DNA from: Ornithinimicrobium pekingense DSM 21552
GTDB lineage: Bacteria > Actinomycetota > Actinomycetes > Actinomycetales > Dermatophilaceae
Direction: 5' to 3'
NCBI RefSeq assembly: GCF_000421185.1
Contig: NZ_ATWJ01000002.1
Span: forward strand, 62,001-126,000
DNA length: 64,000 nucleotides
The notes under the pieces were generated by a model. It worked only from the letters and a program-made list of their open reading frames with translations. It had not been told where the DNA came from and did not search any database. Position 1 is the stretch's first letter. The number at the start of each line of letters is the position of its first letter. The translations under genes were made by a program, and so were the position numbers. This document shows, in pieces, positions 38,630-62,539 of this stretch.

Positions 38630-39982
38630 TCAGCGCGCGGCGCCCGTGACCATCCACGCGTCACCGCGGGCCCGCCACACCAGCCCGGCCGACCGCACGG
38701 CCATGTAGCCGGTGAAGGCGACCCACAGCCAGACCAGGCCGGCCACACCCTCGGCGCCGGAGCCCCAGACACCGAGCACCATCGGCAGGTAGGCGAGGAG
38801 GAAGACGGTCTGGGCGACGGCCAGCCAGCGTGCGTCCCCGGCCCCGATGAGCACCCCGTCGAGGATGAACGCGACGCCGGCCACCGGCTGCCCGACCGCG
38901 ACCACCAGCAGGGCCGCGGCCAGGGCGGCCCGCACCTGCTCGTCGCTGCTGAAGCCGAGAGGGATGACGCGGTGGAGGGCGACGATGAGCACCGCGAGGG
39001 CCACCCCGAACCACACGCTCCAGCGGACCATCATCCAGGTGACGGCCCGGGTGCCCTCGACGTCGCCGGCGCCCAGGGAGCGGCCCGTCAGCGCCTGGGC
39101 GGCGATCGCGAGCGCGTCGAGGGCGAAGGCCAGCGCGCTCCATACCGTCATCGCGACCTGGTGGGCCGCCAGCTCCGGCTCGCCCAGGCCGGCGGCGACC
39201 CAGACCGTCAGCAGCATCACGGCGCGCAGCGCGAGCGTGCGCACGAGCAGCGGCACCCCGTCCACGGCGGCGCGCAGCACCCCGCCGGCGGTGAAGCCCA
39301 GCGGCGCACCCAGGTGCCGGGCGCCCCGCACGACCACGGCCACCAGGGCGACGGCCATGCCGGTCTGGGCCACGACCGTGCCCCACGCGGCGCCGGCGAT
39401 GCCCCACCCCACCCCGTGGACCAGCAGGAGCGACAGTGCCGCGTTGACGGAGAAGCCGACCGTGGCCACGACCAGCGGCGTGCGGGTGTCGAGCATGCCG
39501 CGCAGGACGCCGGTGGCGGCCAGGACCATGAGCATCGGGGGTATGCCGAGCGTCGAGACCCGCAGGTAGGTCACCGCCTCGGCCGTCGCGTCGGGCGTGG
39601 CGCCGAACAGCGTGACGAGGGGCTCGGCCCAGACCGCGATCACCAGGGCGGCGAGCAGGCCGAGGACGAGCGAGAGCCACAGGCCGTCGACCCCCGCGCC
39701 GAGGGCGCCCCGCTGGTCGCCGGCGCCCAGGCGGCGGGCGACCACTGCCGTCGTGCCGTAGGCGAGGAAGACGAAGATGTTGACGGCGGTGAGCAGCACC
39801 CCGCTGGCCACGCCCAGGCCGGCGAGGGAGGCGGTGCCCAGGTAGCCGACGATCGCGGAGTCGGCGAGCAGGAACAAGGGCTCGGCGACGAGGGCCAGGA
39901 AGGCGGGGACGGCCAGCCGGAGCACCTCGCGACGCATGCCCCGGACGGGCTCCTGCGACGGGGAGGGATCGGAGTGGCTCAC
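38630..39982 (-). CDS. MATE-family (DinF-like) efflux transporter
   Basis: The 450-residue membrane protein has about 12 helices in the MATE pattern: LRLAVPAFLALVAEPLFLLADSAIVGYLGTASLAGLGVASGV in the first half, and VTVWVAAGLGEPELAAHQVAMTVWSALAFALDALAIAAQALTGRSLGAGD in the second. The DSAIVGYLGT and AHQV motifs are of the DinF branch. It likely exports cationic compounds with H+ or Na+. GTG at 39982 was chosen; the ATG at 39937 has an AGGAG about 12 nt upstream and is a good alternative. Confidence 0.88.
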   Translation of the reverse strand: MSHSDPSPSQEPVRGMRREVLRLAVPAFLALVAEPLFLLADSAIVGYLGTASLAGLGVASGVLLTAVNIFVFLAYGTTAVVARRLGAGDQRGALGAGVDGLWLSLVLGLLAALVIAVWAEPLVTLFGATPDATAEAVTYLRVSTLGIPPMLMVLAATGVLRGMLDTRTPLVVATVGFSVNAALSLLLVHGVGWGIAGAAWGTVVAQTGMAVALVAVVVRGARHLGAPLGFTAGGVLRAAVDGVPLLVRTLALRAVMLLTVWVAAGLGEPELAAHQVAMTVWSALAFALDALAIAAQALTGRSLGAGDVEGTRAVTWMMVRWSVWFGVALAVLIVALHRVIPLGFSSDEQVRAALAAALLVVAVGQPVAGVAFILDGVLIGAGDARWLAVAQTVFLLAYLPMVLGVWGSGAEGVAGLVWLWVAFTGYMAVRSAGLVWRARGDAWMVTGAAR

Positions 39983-40008
39983 GAGGGAGGAGTCTGGCAG
40001 ACGAGTTT

Positions 40009-40160
40009 TCGTCCACAGCCTGTGTGTTGCGTCTCCGCAGGTCAGCCATGGTTTTGCGCGCGAACTATCTGGTGGTCCACAGCGGCTGTCCACAGCCGCG
40101 GGGCGCCCGCGCGGCGCGTCGTCCACGGTCTCTCCACACCTGGTCCACATGTTGTCCACA
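40009..40160 (+). promoter_or_regulatory. Cluster of seven DnaA-box-like 9-mers before dnaB
   Basis: Seven 9-mers of the form nnnTCCACA (one with final G) lie in the same orientation: TCGTCCACA 40009, TGGTCCACA 40073, CTGTCCACA 40086, TCGTCCACG 40119, CTCTCCACA 40130, TGGTCCACA 40141 and TTGTCCACA 40152. The last is an exact match to the DnaA-box form of Streptomyces and mycobacteria. The other content of the 39983-40279 region is the dnaB -10 box and a short leader ORF. Confidence 0.5.
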
Positions 40161-40190
40161 GGCCCGTTTGGTGGGGGTCGGGGCACGCCC

Positions 40191-40202: not shown

Positions 40203-40289
40203 ATGACCGGCGGGCGAGCTCGTGTGTCAGTGGGCGGTGCTGGACTGCTCGCACGGTCGGACGAGGAGCGGGAGGGCGTATGTCGCTGA
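40203..40289 (+). CDS. Possible 28-codon leaderless leader peptide overlapping dnaB
   Basis: The ATG lies 6 nt after TACGGT. The ORF encodes MTGGRARVSVGGAGLLARSD followed by eight residues and its TGA (40287-40289) lies 7 bases inside dnaB, so it overlaps the dnaB start in another frame. Translation of it would run ribosomes over the dnaB initiation site and couple the two. It resembles no known protein; it may be only a 5' UTR with an incidental ORF. Confidence 0.35.
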   Translation: MTGGRARVSVGGAGLLARSDEEREGVCR

Positions 40290-43200
40290 GCGAGCTGGAG
40301 CAGGCCTACGGGGCCTCGGAGAGCCCCGCGGAGGACCGTCTCCCCCCTCAGGACGTCGCCGCCGAGCAGAGCGCGATCGGCGCGATGCTGCTGTCCAAGG
40401 ATGCCATCGGCGAGTGCTCGGAGATCGTCAAGGCGCCGGACTTCTACCGCCCGGCCCACGAGCGGATCTACGACGCGGTCATCGACCTGTTCTCGCGCGG
40501 CGAGCCGGTCGACGCGATCACCGTCGCCGACGAGCTGACCAAGCGCGGCGACCTGGCCCGGGTGGGCGGCACGGCATACCTGCACCAGCTCATCGCCCAG
40601 GTGCCGACCGCGGCCAACGCCGCCTACTACGCCGAGATCGTCGCCGAGCGGGCCATCCTGCGCCGCCTCGTGGAGGCCGGCACCAAGATCGTGCAGATCG
40701 GCTACGGCGGGGGAGACGTCGAGGAGATCGTCAACGCCGCCCAGGCCGAGGTGTTCGCGGTCGCCGACCGCCGCGGGGGTGAGGACTACCACGCCCTCGG
40801 CGACCTGATCCAGCCGACGACCGACGAGATCGAGCACAACGCGTCGTCCTCGGGGGACATGGTCGGCGTCCCGACCGGCTTCACCGAGCTCGACGAGCTG
40901 ACCAACGGCCTGCACCCGGGGCAGATGATCATCGTGGCGGCCAGGCCGGCCGTGGGCAAGGCTCTTGCCCTCGAAACGCCCCTGCCCACACCCACCGGCT
41001 GGACAACGATGGGCGACGTCGCGGTGGGTGACGAGCTGCTTGGGGCCGACGGTCGGCCGACCACCGTGGTGGCAGCGACCGAGGTGATGGAAGGGCGTCC
41101 CTGCTTCGAGGTCGAGTTCTCCGACGGCTCGACGATCGTCGCTGATGCCGAGCACCTGTGGCAGACGAGCACGCGGGCGGAACGCCGCGGCCTGCGCGAT
41201 GGAGAGAGTTCGGCACGAAGCACCGTCGACATTCGCAACACGCTTCGTTGTGACACGGCGGACCGCAGGCTGAATCACAGTGTCGCCCTCACACAGCCAC
41301 TCTCTCTGCCGCCCGCCGACCTTCCTCTGTCCCCCTACGTGCTGGGCGCATGGCTGGGTGATGGTGAGACGGCCGGCGCGCGTCTGACCTCCGCCGACCC
41401 AGAGATGGTCATGCTGCTGGAGGGCGAGGGTCTGCATGTGCGGCCGATGGGGGGGATGCTCTACTCCTTGACCCTTCCCAAGGAACAGATCGCCGAGCGG
41501 GACTGCGTGGTTTGCGGCACGACATTCATCCCGCAAACGTCCCAGGTCAAGACTTGCGGGCGAAAGTGTGGTGGGCGGTCGCGCGGTCTGGGTGAGCCGT
41601 CGATAGCGACGTGCGTCGACTGCGGAGGACCCTCGAGCGGGGGACGTCGATGCCAGTCCTGTTTCCACGATCATGGTTCGGTCAAGGCGCTGCTGCGCAA
41701 GGTGGGTGTCCTGGGGAGTAAGCACATCCCTGCCTCCTACCAGCGTGCCGACGAGACCCAGCGGCGCGCGCTGCTCTCGGGGCTCCTCGACACGGACGGC
41801 ACCGTCACGGCCGGTGGTTGTCCGCAGTTCACGACGACATCGCGTCGCCTGGCGGACGACGTCTACGAGCTCATCGTGGGTCTGGGCTACCGCTGTGGGC
41901 GTAGCCGCAAGGTGGTCCGCGGGCGAAGCACCGACACATCGGTGGCTTACACCCTCACGTTTTCCGCAGACGAGGACATCTTCCGTCTGGAGCGCAAGAA
42001 CTTGCTGCACAAACGACTGCGGCAGCGGTCGTTGCAGCGCAGGAACTCGCGGTTCATCACCGCCGTGCGTCCCGTCCCGTCCACGCCGGTCCGGTGCGTG
42101 CAGGTCACTAGCCCCGACCACCTCTACCTGGCCGGGCGGTCGATGATCCCGACCCACAACTCGACCTTCGCCCTAGACATCGCCCGCGCGGCGGCGATCA
42201 AGGCGCGGATGCCCAGCGTCGTCTTCTCCCTGGAGATGAGCCGCACCGAGATCACCATGCGTCTGCTCTCCGCCGAGTCGGAGATCCCGCTGCAGAACAT
42301 GCGCAAGGGCAACATGCGCGACCGCGACTGGACCCGCCTGGCCGAGACGCAGGGCCGCATCCACGACGCCCCGCTGTTCATCGACGACTCGCCCAACATG
42401 TCGCTCATGGAGATCCGGGCCAAGTGCCGACGGCTCAAGCAGCGCAACGACCTCAAGCTCGTCATCGTCGACTACCTGCAGCTGATGAGCTCGGGCAAGC
42501 GCGTGGAGTCACGCCAGCAGGAGGTGGCGGAATTCAGCCGTGCGCTCAAGCTGCTGGCCAAGGAGCTGGAGGTGCCGCTGATCGCGCTCTCGCAGCTGAA
42601 CCGTGGGCCTGAGCAGCGCACGGACAAGAAGCCGCAGATGAGCGACCTTCGCGAGTCCGGCTGCCTCACCGCCGACACCCGGGTCTTGCGCGCGGACACC
42701 GGTGCCGAGGTGACCATGCGCGAGCTGCACGCCACGGGCGCGACCGACGTGCCGGTGTGGTCCCTCGACGAGTCCCTGCGCTACGTCCGCCGTCACCTCA
42801 CGCACGTCTTTCCCACCGGGACCCGTCCGGTCTTCCGCCTGACCCTGACCTCGGGCAAGACGATCCGGGCGACCGAGAACCACCCCTTCCTCACCTACGA
42901 CGGCTGGAAGCAGCTGGGTGACCTGCGGACCGGGGACCGTGTCGCGGTGCCGCGGCACGTGCCGGCGCCGGAGGTGCACGATCCCTGGGAGGACGACAAC
43001 CACCTCGTCCTGCTGGCCCACCTGCTCGGTGACGGGTCCATGCTGCCGCGCCAGCCCCTGCGCTACGCCTCGGTCGACGAGGAGAACCTGCGCGCGGTGA
43101 CCACCGCCGCGCTGTCGTTCGGTGTGATGGCGGTGCGGGACGACGACCCCGCGGCCCGGTGCACGACGCTGCGCCTGCGCTCGCCCTACCGCCTTGCGCG

Positions 43201-44128
43201 CGGCCGCCGCAACCCCATCGCGGAGTGGCTGGACGACCTGGGTGTGTTCGGGCTGCGCAGCCACGAGAAGCTCGTCCCCGAGCGCGTGTTCCGTGCCTCC
43301 AAGCGGCAGATCGCGCTCTTCCTGCGCCACCTGTGGGCGACCGACGGCTCGGTCACCGTCAACAAGGCGCAGACGGGCGGACGCGTCTACTACGCCTCGA
43401 CGAGCCGGCAGCTGATCGACGACGTGTCCCGCCTGCTGCTGAGGTTCGGCATCAGCACCCGGATCCGGACGGTGCGCAAGGCTGGTTACCGCGACGGCTA
43501 CACCCTGGACATCTCCGGCAGCGACAGCCAGCGCCGGTTCCTGCAGGAGATCGGGGTGTTCGGCGGCCGGTCGGCCTCGGCGGCGCAGCTGCTCCACGTC
43601 ATCCGCGACCGCCAGGCCAGCACCAACGTCGACACGGTCCCCACCGAGGTCTGGGGCGACGTCCGTCGGGTCATGGCCGAGCAGGGCATGACGACCCGCC
43701 AGTTCCAGGAGGGCCTCGGCGTGTCCTACAGCGGCAGCGCGCTCTACAAGAGCGCGCCGACGCGTGAGCGCCTGGCACGGGTCGCGGCGGTCCTCGACAG
43801 CGCCGAGCTCGAGCTGTTCGCCGTGAACGACGTCTTCTGGGACGAGGTCGCTAGCGTCGAGCTGGACGGCGTCGAGGAGGTCTACGACGCCACGGTGCTC
43901 GGTCACCACAACTTCATCGCCAACGGCATCGCGGTGCACAACTCGATCGAGCAGGACGCCGACGTCGTCATCCTGCTGCACCGCGAGTCCCTCTACGAGC
44001 GGGAGTCGCCCCGGGAGGGCGAGGCCGACGTCATCGTGGCCAAGCACCGCAACGGCCCGACCGACACCGTCGTCGTGGCCTTCCAGGGCCACTACAGCCG
44101 CTTCACCAACATGGCGAGCAACTTCTAG
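40280..44128 (+). CDS. dnaB: Replicative DNA helicase DnaB containing two inteins
   Basis: The 1282-residue precursor yields a 455-residue DnaB helicase after removal of two inteins, the normal length. Extein 1 (residues 1-227) has the N-terminal domain and GQMIIVAARPAVGK; extein 2 (628-794) has STFALDIARAAA, the DnaB helicase motifs VVFSLEMS and LKLVIVDYLQLMS, and MSDLRESG; extein 3 (1222-1282) has SIEQDADVVILLHRESLYE. Inteins occupy 228-627 and 795-1221. The helicase unwinds DNA ahead of the replication fork. The ATG at 40280 is preceded by GGGAGGG. Splicing must join the GK and ST of the Walker A motif, so no ATPase is made without it. Confidence 0.97.
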   Translation: MSLSELEQAYGASESPAEDRLPPQDVAAEQSAIGAMLLSKDAIGECSEIVKAPDFYRPAHERIYDAVIDLFSRGEPVDAITVADELTKRGDLARVGGTAYLHQLIAQVPTAANAAYYAEIVAERAILRRLVEAGTKIVQIGYGGGDVEEIVNAAQAEVFAVADRRGGEDYHALGDLIQPTTDEIEHNASSSGDMVGVPTGFTELDELTNGLHPGQMIIVAARPAVGKALALETPLPTPTGWTTMGDVAVGDELLGADGRPTTVVAATEVMEGRPCFEVEFSDGSTIVADAEHLWQTSTRAERRGLRDGESSARSTVDIRNTLRCDTADRRLNHSVALTQPLSLPPADLPLSPYVLGAWLGDGETAGARLTSADPEMVMLLEGEGLHVRPMGGMLYSLTLPKEQIAERDCVVCGTTFIPQTSQVKTCGRKCGGRSRGLGEPSIATCVDCGGPSSGGRRCQSCFHDHGSVKALLRKVGVLGSKHIPASYQRADETQRRALLSGLLDTDGTVTAGGCPQFTTTSRRLADDVYELIVGLGYRCGRSRKVVRGRSTDTSVAYTLTFSADEDIFRLERKNLLHKRLRQRSLQRRNSRFITAVRPVPSTPVRCVQVTSPDHLYLAGRSMIPTHNSTFALDIARAAAIKARMPSVVFSLEMSRTEITMRLLSAESEIPLQNMRKGNMRDRDWTRLAETQGRIHDAPLFIDDSPNMSLMEIRAKCRRLKQRNDLKLVIVDYLQLMSSGKRVESRQQEVAEFSRALKLLAKELEVPLIALSQLNRGPEQRTDKKPQMSDLRESGCLTADTRVLRADTGAEVTMRELHATGATDVPVWSLDESLRYVRRHLTHVFPTGTRPVFRLTLTSGKTIRATENHPFLTYDGWKQLGDLRTGDRVAVPRHVPAPEVHDPWEDDNHLVLLAHLLGDGSMLPRQPLRYASVDEENLRAVTTAALSFGVMAVRDDDPAARCTTLRLRSPYRLARGRRNPIAEWLDDLGVFGLRSHEKLVPERVFRASKRQIALFLRHLWATDGSVTVNKAQTGGRVYYASTSRQLIDDVSRLLLRFGISTRIRTVRKAGYRDGYTLDISGSDSQRRFLQEIGVFGGRSASAAQLLHVIRDRQASTNVDTVPTEVWGDVRRVMAEQGMTTRQFQEGLGVSYSGSALYKSAPTRERLARVAAVLDSAELELFAVNDVFWDEVASVELDGVEEVYDATVLGHHNFIANGIAVHNSIEQDADVVILLHRESLYERESPREGEADVIVAKHRNGPTDTVVVAFQGHYSRFTNMASNF
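40961..42160 (+). mobile_element. DnaB intein 1, class 3-like, in the Walker A motif
   Basis: The 400-residue intein lies between GK and ST of the P-loop and begins with Ala, not Cys or Ser. It carries the class 3 set: block B HLW (W67), block F RCVQV (C379) and block G PTHN (T398), with His399 and Asn400 and Ser as first extein residue. In class 3 inteins the block F Cys performs the first attack. It has LAGLIDADG motifs VLGAWLGDGE and LLSGLLDTDGTV, both with catalytic Asp, so homing may be active. A Cys-rich insert (CX2C-X13-CX3C and CX2C-X9-CX2C) lies between them. The base composition looks less GC-rich than the exteins, consistent with acquisition. Confidence 0.9.
42662..43942 (+). mobile_element. 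DnaB intein 2, canonical class 1, at RESG|SIEQ
   Basis: This 427-residue intein starts with Cys1 (CLTADTRVLRA), has block B TENHPF with His74, and ends GIAVHN with His426 and Asn427, followed by the extein Ser. The insertion point RESG|SIEQ is that of the Synechocystis DnaB intein. LAGLIDADG motifs HLLGDGSM (block C) and HLWATDGSV (block E) are present, with Asp in each. Between block E and block F lies an extra helical domain (VMAEQGMTTRQFQEGLGV) that looks like a helix-turn-helix. Codon use matches the host better than intein 1, which suggests longer residence. Confidence 0.93.
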
Positions 44129-44168: not shown

Positions 44169-44174
44169 TAGTGT
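44169..44174 (+). promoter_or_regulatory. -10 box of the serpin gene (leaderless)
   Basis: TAGTGT ends 7 nt before the ATG at 44182, and no ribosome site is seen. Confidence 0.45.
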
Positions 44175-44181
44175 GCCGGGT

Positions 44182-45468
44182 ATGCGGTCTCGCACCAGGA
44201 CCCTCGCCGGTTGGGCGGCGGTCGCCATGTGCTCCCTGGCGGGGCTCGCCGCGTGCGGCGACCGGCCGGCGCCGGCGGCCGCGCAGCTGACCAGTGACGT
44301 GGACCGGGAGACGGTGAGCCCCTCCGACGCCGTGGCCCTGCCCGACCTGGTCGCCGCCGCCGACGCCCTGGGCCTGCAGATGCTCGCGCTCGGGGGAGCG
44401 GAGACGACGGTCACCTCGCCCGCGAGCCTCCAGGTCACGCTGTCGATGCTCGCCGAGGGTGCGGACGGCGCGACGCTGGCAGAGCTGGAGACGCTCGTCG
44501 GCGCGGCCGGGCCCGACCGGGGCAAGGGGGTCAACGCGCTGACCACCTCGCTCGCCGACCTGGACGGCGACCCGTCCGTGGTCGCTGAGGACGAGCTGCC
44601 CGCCGACCCGGTCGTGCACCGCGCGAGCCGGCTGGTCCTGGACGACGCGCTGACGGTGCGGCAGACGTTCGTCGACGCCCTCGCCCGCTCCTACGACGCC
44701 CCGGCCCAGACCACCGACCTGGGCAGTGACGACGCCAGGGCGGTGCTCGACGCGTGGGTGAAGGAGCACACCGGAGGTCTGGTGCCTCGCTCCGCCATCG
44801 TCCCCGGTCCCGAGCTGCAGCTCGCCCTGCAGGACGCCGTCGTGCTGGCCGCCCGCTGGGAGCAGCCCTTCCTGGCGGAGCTGACCCACCCGGCGCCGTT
44901 CACGCTGAGCTCCGGGGAGGAGGTGGAGGTAGACATGATGAGCACCGGCGAGCCCCGCGAGACCGCCTACGCCGAGGTGGACGGGTGGCAGGCGGTGCGC
45001 CTGCCCTACACGGGTGGGCGGCTGGCCGCCGAGGTCCTCCTGCCGCCGCACGGCACCCTGCCCGCCGACCTGGACACCACGCTCCTGTCCCGGATCCTCT
45101 CGGGGCTGGACGAGCCCGAGCACACGACCCTGCTGCTGCGCATGCCCACCGTCGACGGCAGCTCGAGCCTCGACCTGCTCGGCCTGCTGGAGGAGAGCGC
45201 GCCCTCGGCCCTGCGTGGCGGCTTCTCCGGCATCAGCGACCAGCCGCTCCTGGTCAGCCAGGCGGTGCAGCAGGGGGTCCTCGTCATCGACGAGGACGGC
45301 ACCGTCGCCGCTGCGGTGACCGAGATGGGGATGGCCGGCTCCGCCCCGATCGAGCCCCCGCTGGAGGTCGTCGTCGACCGCCCCTACCTGGTCCGCGTCG
45401 CCGACCGGCAGACCGGGTGGCCCCTGTTCCTCGCCAACGTCGCCGACCCCCGCGGCGAGGAGGAGTAG
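44182..45468 (+). CDS. Serpin-family lipoprotein
   Basis: The 428-residue protein has a lipoprotein signal peptide: positive n-region, hydrophobic stretch and lipobox LAAC with Cys25, so it should be anchored outside the membrane. The rest follows the serpin plan: QDAVVLAARWEQPF (helix-strand region), VPRSAIVPG, then the hinge of the reactive loop IDEDGTVAAAVTEMGMAGSAP and the C-terminal VDRPYLVRVADRQTGWPLFLANVADP. The hinge small residues (TVAAAV) are the type needed for loop insertion, which suggests an inhibitory serpin. P1 is uncertain, Met or Gly near the AAVTEMGM region. ATG at 44182 was chosen; a GTG at 44173 is possible. Confidence 0.9.
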   Translation: MRSRTRTLAGWAAVAMCSLAGLAACGDRPAPAAAQLTSDVDRETVSPSDAVALPDLVAAADALGLQMLALGGAETTVTSPASLQVTLSMLAEGADGATLAELETLVGAAGPDRGKGVNALTTSLADLDGDPSVVAEDELPADPVVHRASRLVLDDALTVRQTFVDALARSYDAPAQTTDLGSDDARAVLDAWVKEHTGGLVPRSAIVPGPELQLALQDAVVLAARWEQPFLAELTHPAPFTLSSGEEVEVDMMSTGEPRETAYAEVDGWQAVRLPYTGGRLAAEVLLPPHGTLPADLDTTLLSRILSGLDEPEHTTLLLRMPTVDGSSSLDLLGLLEESAPSALRGGFSGISDQPLLVSQAVQQGVLVIDEDGTVAAAVTEMGMAGSAPIEPPLEVVVDRPYLVRVADRQTGWPLFLANVADPRGEEE

Positions 45469-61525: not shown

Positions 61526-62539
61526 ATGGTCAGACTCCGCAGGGTCTCGCCCGACGAGGCCGGCTGGACCCGGCGCCGGGCGGGCAAGGGCTTCAGCTAC
61601 CGCGACGAGGAGGGCGCGAAGCTGCCCGCCGAGGACGTCGAGCGCATCAGGAGCCTGGCGATCCCGCCGGCCTGGCGAGACGTGTGGATCTGCCCCCGCG
61701 CCAACGGGCACATCCAGGCCGTGGGGACCGACGACGCCGGGCGCCGGCAGTACCTCTACCACCCCGACTGGCGGGCCCGGCAGGACGAGCTGAAGTTCGA
61801 GCGGATCGTCGAGGCCTCCCGGCTCCTGCCCGCGGCGCGCAAGCGGGTGAGCCGCGACCTGCGCCGGGAGGGTATGCCGTGGGAGCGCGCCTGCGCGACC
61901 GCCGTGCGGATGCTCGACAAGGGCTACTTCCGGATCGGGCACGACGTCTACACCGACGTCAACGGCTCCTTCGGCCTGACCACGCTGGAGCGCCAGCACG
62001 TGCGGTCCGTCCGGGGCGGCCTGCGGTTCTGCTTCGTCGGCAAGAGCGGCGTCGAGCAGGAGCTGACGATCGAGGACGAGGACGTCACCGCCGCGCTGCG
62101 CCAGATGCGGCGCCGGCGCACCGCCTCCCAGCGGGTGCTGGCCTACCGAGACGGCAGGGGCTGGCACGACCTGGACGCCGACGACGTCAACACCTACCTC
62201 GGCGACCTGTTCGACGGACAGCTGACGGCCAAGGACTTCCGCACCTGGCACGCGACCGTCCACGCGGCGGTCGCGCTGGCCAGCTCGCCCGAGCCCGGCG
62301 ACACCGTGACCTCACGCCGCCGCGCGGTGAGGGCGGCGGTGGAGGAGGTCTCGGAGTTCCTCGGCAACACGCCCACGATCGCCAAGGGCTCCTACATCGA
62401 CCCGCGCGTCATCGAGCAGTACGAGGAGGGCGAGACCGTCACGGTGCCGGCGGCCAAGGAGGGCCGGACCCCGGTGCGGCGCCAGGGCGCGGTCGAGGAG
62501 GCCGTGCGTGAGCTGCTCGGCGCCGAGGAGGGCGACTGA
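61526..62539 (+). CDS. DNA topoisomerase IB (poxvirus-type)
   Basis: The 337-residue protein has the bacterial/viral type IB pattern: RRVSPDEAGWTRRRAGKGFSYRDEEG, then IRSLAIPPAWRDVWICPRANGHIQAVGTDDAGRRQYLYHPDWRARQDELKFERI, LRFCFVGKSGVEQELTIED, LTAKDFRTWHATV with a catalytic Arg, and TPTIAKGSYIDPRVIEQYE with the nucleophile Tyr. It relaxes supercoiled DNA by nicking one strand with a 3'-phosphotyrosine. CATACT lies 5 nt before the ATG and no ribosome site is present. The last 30 residues are Arg/Glu-rich. Confidence 0.93.
   Translation: MVRLRRVSPDEAGWTRRRAGKGFSYRDEEGAKLPAEDVERIRSLAIPPAWRDVWICPRANGHIQAVGTDDAGRRQYLYHPDWRARQDELKFERIVEASRLLPAARKRVSRDLRREGMPWERACATAVRMLDKGYFRIGHDVYTDVNGSFGLTTLERQHVRSVRGGLRFCFVGKSGVEQELTIEDEDVTAALRQMRRRRTASQRVLAYRDGRGWHDLDADDVNTYLGDLFDGQLTAKDFRTWHATVHAAVALASSPEPGDTVTSRRRAVRAAVEEVSEFLGNTPTIAKGSYIDPRVIEQYEEGETVTVPAAKEGRTPVRRQGAVEEAVRELLGAEEGD

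Follow-up and report, generated by a model that had tools for sequence, protein, structure and literature searches.

The DnaB helicase gene of Ornithinimicrobium pekingense DSM 21552 is interrupted, within its P-loop, by an intein (intein 1) whose splicing part is of a known kind and whose new part, as judged from sequence, is a LAGLIDADG homing endonuclease (HEN) carrying a zinc-ribbon-like module, in an intein that looks competent for splicing. The gene lies in the window analysed here, a stretch of 64,000 nucleotides (positions 62,001 to 126,000, forward strand, of contig NZ_ATWJ01000002.1). Intein 1 is probably a HEN-bearing member of the actinobacterial DnaB P-loop class 3 inteins, in which the module aids homing and not splicing. 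The features discussed are the following, in window coordinates.

40280..44128, + strand: dnaB precursor of 1282 aa, made up of three extein pieces with two inteins
40961..42160, + strand: intein 1 (400 aa, class 3), splitting Walker A between GK and ST
41102..41104, + strand: C48, counterpart of Cys48, the redox partner in M. smegmatis DnaBi1 (sequence; 102 relatives)
41159..41161, + strand: W67 of the WCT motif (sequence; 102 relatives)
41342..41368, + strand: first LAGLIDADG motif, LGAWLGDGE, residues 128-136, with D134
41495..41677, + strand: zinc-ribbon-like module, about residues 179-239, with Cys 182, 185, 199, 203, 218, 221, 231 and 234
41774..41803, + strand: second LAGLIDADG motif, LSGLLDTDGT, residues 272-281, with D277 and D279
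42095..42097, + strand: C379 in block F, predicted nucleophile of class 3 splicing (C118 in M. smegmatis DnaBi1)
42152..42160, + strand: T398-H399-N400, block G end of intein 1
42662..43942, + strand: intein 2, class 1-type, 427 aa, Cys1, C-terminal HN, inserted between RESG and S, with a LAGLIDADG_3 domain

The open frame is recognized as DnaB (TIGR00665, E 3.7e-151; PRK07773, E 0). Intein 1 is preceded by ...AARPAVGK and followed by STFALDIA, and therefore splits GK from ST of the Walker A motif, with Ala as its first residue and Ser at +1, exactly as the first-pass annotation had placed it; the 102 relatives described below occupy the same site. GC3 is 0.97 for the exteins and 0.80 for the intein. 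Searching the genome with the joined exteins of DnaB returned three matches at E <= 1e-10, each a piece of this one gene, so that at this threshold no intein-free dnaB was seen; since the P-loop is split in the only dnaB seen, functional helicase depends on splicing, a point already made from the sequence and upheld here. The second intein of the gene, not mentioned in the first-pass annotation, has a LAGLIDADG domain of its own (E 4.1e-29); its residues 323-356 weakly match DUF7726 (E 0.12). A serpin gene lies directly 3' of dnaB (44173-45468, + strand; Pfam Serpin, E 2.2e-54), and a MatE transporter is found upstream on the opposite strand (38630-40186, E 2e-46).

The residues on which class 3 membership had been proposed were all found in place: H65-L66-W67, C379 in block F and the terminal P397-T398-H399-N400. 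Ala1, the WCT triplet, the +1 Ser and the nearest solved relatives, all of them class 3 inteins, agree on this assignment. When the 400 residues were searched, the closest solved chains by sequence were those of M. chimaera DnaB1 (6rix and 6riy, E 7e-44 and 3.8e-43), followed by M. smegmatis DnaBi1 (6bs8, E 2e-41). A chance motif was ruled out, because the class 3 residues are kept throughout the collected DnaB P-loop inteins, where A1, C48, D62, H65, W67, C379, T398, H399 and N400 are invariant in 102 out of 102. By its sequence, intein 1 belongs to class 3 and occupies the same site as M. smegmatis DnaBi1.

This set of 102 derives from 106 loci, the best-scoring of the matches obtained in 26 of 58 and 117 of 394 genomes. 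Sequences were extracted from 99 of the 106 loci, and four more in DnaB (L069, L098, L099 and L100) were read by eye; L092, L094 and L107 (other hosts) and L097 (not in DnaB) were left out. The three elements in other bacterial hosts are class 3-looking inteins, all with a Cys at the C48 position; by eye, two of the hosts are dCTP deaminase-like proteins and one an exonuclease-like protein, and L107 features a C..GH-type motif in the region discussed below as the slot.

It had also been proposed that redox state or metals could gate splicing through the block F Cys. The gating idea is not new, being already published for the M. smegmatis intein at the same site: H2O2 gives a Cys48-Cys118 disulfide in DnaBi1 (PMC6195587), zinc is bound by C118, V119 and Y128 (PMC7360933), and zinc and oxidants are both reported to inhibit splicing (PMC7360933, PMC6195587). 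The three zinc-site residues correspond to C379, V380 and Y389 of intein 1, where the counterparts of all the published redox and zinc residues, C48 included, are present. Inhibition of its splicing by oxidants or zinc, via C48 and C379, would thus be a fair prediction from the mycobacterial ortholog. Across the 102 P-loop inteins, position 380 is Val in 85, Ile in 15 and Leu in 2, and position 389 is Tyr in 88 and Phe in 14. C48, termed non-conserved in PMC6195587, is found in all 102. Among viral class 3 inteins (78 distinct ones, from the best 80 of 570 loci) it is found in 62, and the other 16 contain the full WCT triplet without C48. What can be added to the known gating is that its residues, including C48, hold across the whole collected P-loop set.

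The first-pass annotation overlooked the HEN and the module, which occupy the middle of intein 1. Pfam LAGLIDADG_3 matches residues 267-334 (E 9e-7), and the acidic residues D134 and D279 are both intact. A model of the intein, obtained from a 57-sequence alignment (mean pLDDT 90.2, pTM 0.88), had the intein endonuclease PI-SceI as its best Foldseek match (E 8.5e-16). Within the HEN, after the first LAGLIDADG half, the module is inserted, with the pattern CxxC-x13-CxxxC-x14-CxxC-x9-CxxC over residues 182-234. With these two parts, intein 1 is not a mini-intein but a form of the element that bears a HEN and is probably mobile.

None of the module's eight Cys varies in either of two sets of aligned relatives (57 of 57 and 48 of 48), both selected by similarity to a module-bearing query. 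The Pfam double zinc ribbon DZR_2 matches 31 of the 48 module members at E <= 0.05 (best 2.5e-6); for the window's own module alone, the DZR_2 match has an E of 0.27, and no Pfam family is found at E 0.05. Among the 57 intein members, PHROG matches were to phrog_1333 (unknown) in 44 and to phrog_1271 (HNH endonuclease) in 33, the latter spanning residues 179-228 in the window's intein. Within the model of the intein, confidence is lowest in the module, with 10-residue means of 52-80 over residues 181-230. Modelled alone it reached a pLDDT of 77 and a pTM of 0.42, and Foldseek against PDB found no fold match at E <= 0.001 (best 0.67); its profile, compared to PDB sequences, gave a best E of 0.0068, mainly with ribosomal and other zinc proteins.

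For 27 non-overlapping pairs of inteins taken together, dN/dS is 0.143 for the module, 0.154 for the rest of the HEN and 0.103 for the splicing domain; 127 of 130 inteins fit the module pattern and went into the pairing. On these substitution ratios, the module is under purifying selection.

A WhiB-type iron-sulphur cluster was considered as the source of the eight Cys, the best phage matches to the module being annotated as WhiB, and rejected upon reading one such phage protein, that of Blexus, where the match lies at about 94-147, in tandem CxxC motifs, and outside the WhiB domain (18-81). This protein, gp55 of Mycobacterium phage Blexus (L268:422-919), features a WhiB domain and, after it, tandem CxxC motifs resembling the intein module. 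The same module was not found in class 3 inteins of the phage collection, where none of 576 and none of 232 records with a match reaches 80% query coverage.

The module is widespread, though not universal, among the 102 DnaB P-loop inteins. Two ribbons are found in 50 (49 with eight Cys, one with seven) and only the second ribbon in 4; 13 are mini-inteins, and the remaining 35 are longer inteins without an intact module, 27 of which have none of it and 8 one to four Cys. A further 80 genome contig loci, the best 80 of 575, had been retrieved with search patterns containing C48 and the first motif; all 80 contain the double ribbon and 78 both LAGLIDADG motifs, figures which, because of this selection, were not used for frequencies.

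Both HEN Asp residues are kept in 51 of the 54 inteins with a module, versus 12 of the 35 other inteins of HEN length (Fisher p 1e-9), a link which is not significant once relatedness is controlled: 11 independent pairs give a sign test median p of 0.125, with on average 4.5 pairs going the same way and 0.1 the opposite way. The three module-bearing inteins missing one Asp are L041, L048 and L084. Since 12 of the 35 inteins without an intact module retain both Asp, the HEN may work without it. A clean absence is provided by L013, an intein of 344 aa from the same genus as the window, with no module and both Asp in place. In the 31 genomes of this genus, 6 inteins bear the module, 1 is of the 344-aa form and 7 are mini-inteins; the P-loop site is empty in 15 genomes, and no dnaB match was obtained in 2. 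This distribution, like the GC3 difference between intein 1 and its exteins, speaks for mobility of the element. The splicing domains of three mini-inteins, L014, L016 and L017, are close to that of the module-bearing L006.

Base composition was compared as well. The mean GC3 gap between exteins and intein is 0.095 in inteins with the double module (n=50), 0.049 in those with none (n=27) and 0.075 in mini-inteins (n=13); the larger gap in the first group versus the other two (Mann-Whitney p 0.0013) is suggestive only, as relatedness was not controlled for.

A slot equivalent to the one hosting the module, running from the first motif to a conserved KHIP region, was analysed in the 78 distinct viral proteins (best 80 of 570 loci). 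Here intact HEN residues reflect the way the loci were chosen, as the search patterns held D134 or D279. The slot measures 49-75 residues in 55 of the 78 and 94-114 in the other 23, with no intermediates. Nineteen of the filled slots contain a CxxxH-CxxC motif, one (L215) three CxxC, one (L189) another Cys/His motif, and two (L206 and L207) are HTH-like: L207 matches Pfam HTH_29 with an E of 5.5e-4, below Pfam's own cut-off, and L206 has no Pfam match. In a PHROG scan of eight slot stretches, HNH families were matched by four (E from 1.4e-5 to 0.025), an HTH family by one (0.016) and an unknown family by another; two matched nothing. The closest viral relative of the window's intein in the tree, L188 (within the best 80 of 570), also sits in a DnaB P-loop and contains a different slot motif.

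When 14 anchor-to-anchor segments were compared in the 78 viral inteins, more than 25 extra residues were found in the slot in 23 cases, in the segment 67-106 in 6, and in none of the other 12 segments. The module label changes at least 19 times on a tree built without the module columns, and filled and empty viral slots interchange at least 15 times on theirs, counts that combine gains and losses without telling one from the other. Both trees are poorly supported, with 30 of 86 inner branches open in the first and 28 of 76 in the second. From these data we infer that this one slot would act as a docking site for DNA-binding modules, serving homing and not the control of splicing. The segment near residue 80, variable in the 6 viral inteins, may perhaps be a second docking place. 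Around the same position, after the N-terminal splicing half, several DnaB P-loop inteins (L051-L058 and L060, 486-501 aa) contain an extra insert of roughly 85-100 residues.

Intein 1 may be envisaged to work as follows. By analogy with the chemistry of its family, C379 would attack the N-terminal junction, the chain would move to the +1 Ser, and cyclization of Asn400 would release an intact P-loop. Between the two splicing halves lies the two-motif LAGLIDADG HEN, with both D134 and D279 in place, and in the loop after the last strand of its first half an eight-Cys module of roughly 60 residues, resembling a double zinc ribbon, is inserted. The module would bind two zinc ions and add DNA contacts to the endonuclease, so that the element could home into dnaB P-loops that are still empty.

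Zinc ribbons have a structural role in many cases, and the module might accordingly be a zinc clip which stabilizes the endonuclease fold without touching DNA; its constraint, close to that of the rest of the HEN (0.143 vs 0.154), would fit such a role. However, HEN-like inteins without the module exist, such as L013 with both its Asp, and the same slot accepts unrelated modules, HTH-like ones included, several of which resemble parts of phage HNH endonucleases. This variety argues for DNA binding rather than one structural need, and we regard the clip as unlikely.

Even less probable, in our opinion, is that the Cys module is a metal or redox sensor of splicing, through which, together with C48 and C379, DnaB activation would respond. 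The inhibition of splicing by zinc and oxidants in the M. smegmatis ortholog (PMC7360933, PMC6195587) and the eight additional thiols in the same chain speak for a sensor; yet that inhibition was described in a mini-intein without any such module, and 13 of the 102 P-loop inteins are mini-inteins and 35 more have no intact module, all with their class 3 residues. The module, moreover, sits in the HEN and tends to be missing where HEN residues degenerate. We favour DNA recognition in homing as the module's role, rather than control of splicing, in view of its conservation, its location within the HEN, the lack of it in mini-inteins and its resemblance to modules of phage nucleases.

That intein 1 is nothing more than a class 3 intein of the DnaBi1 type whose endonuclease is decaying, and the insert neutral filler, is hardly credible: HEN decay is indeed common (at least one HEN Asp is missing in 23 of the 35 inteins without an intact module), and mini-inteins and longer ones interchange at least 6 times on the splicing-domain tree, but the module has its low dN/dS and conserved eight Cys, and both HEN Asp of the window's intein are intact.

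The preferred reading, a module serving DNA recognition in homing, may be extended to class 3 inteins in general, a step we take with some hesitation while leaning towards it: their HENs would have one loop in common, behind the final strand of the first half, as a docking place for mini-domains that bind DNA and are unrelated to each other (double zinc ribbons, CxxxH-CxxC fingers, HTH), with gain, loss and exchange of these over time, and the HEN-less DnaBi1 mini-inteins, studied as redox sensors, would be derelict descendants of such mobile elements. If true, nature would have built zinc-finger meganucleases into proteins that splice themselves. The viral inteins, as a series, suggest that modules can be exchanged at one loop; nature may have retuned homing in this way, and protein engineers could use the docking loop to extend the specificity of meganucleases.

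Among known systems, the closest is M. smegmatis DnaBi1 (the DnaB-b mini-intein; 6bs8, 6own), which shares with intein 1 the P-loop site, Ala1, WCT, C48 and the +1 Ser, in a gene whose two-intein layout is the same as here (PMC6195587). DnaBi1 is described as having no HEN (PMC6195587), as are the mycobacterial DnaB-b inteins studied in PMC5050341; the window's intein, in contrast, contains a full LAGLIDADG HEN and the zinc-ribbon-like module. With HEN-bearing relatives of the mycobacterial 'redox sensor' mini-intein at hand, parasite-first and regulator-first readings become comparable.

PI-SceI, the VMA1-derived endonuclease, resembles intein 1 in having a Hint domain split by a two-motif LAGLIDADG HEN. 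It differs in splicing by the class 1 mechanism and is not known to contain a zinc module; under its name VDE it is reported to be without a zinc finger (PMC7282813). Phage HNH and GIY-YIG homing endonucleases also add small DNA-binding modules, such as NUMOD, zinc finger and HTH (PMC3943268), and several slot modules match PHROG HNH families; unlike these enzymes, intein 1 has a LAGLIDADG nuclease within an intein, and its module lies in an internal loop and is not tethered.

In open-licence titles and abstract openings no zinc module in a bacterial intein endonuclease was found, and earlier notice elsewhere is possible. The nearest parallel is offered by yeast HO and WHO, where an intein-derived LAGLIDADG endonuclease is joined to CxxC-type zinc motifs, called in a 2020 paper the sole intein-zinc finger fusions known in any organism (PMC7282813). 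In these enzymes the zinc finger is C-terminal and exteins are missing, and HO does not splice. Intein 1 is instead bacterial, bears its module internally (residues 179-239) in the HEN, and has exteins and all splicing residues. Next to the yeast pair it would represent a second case of an intein fused to a zinc finger, and an independent one.
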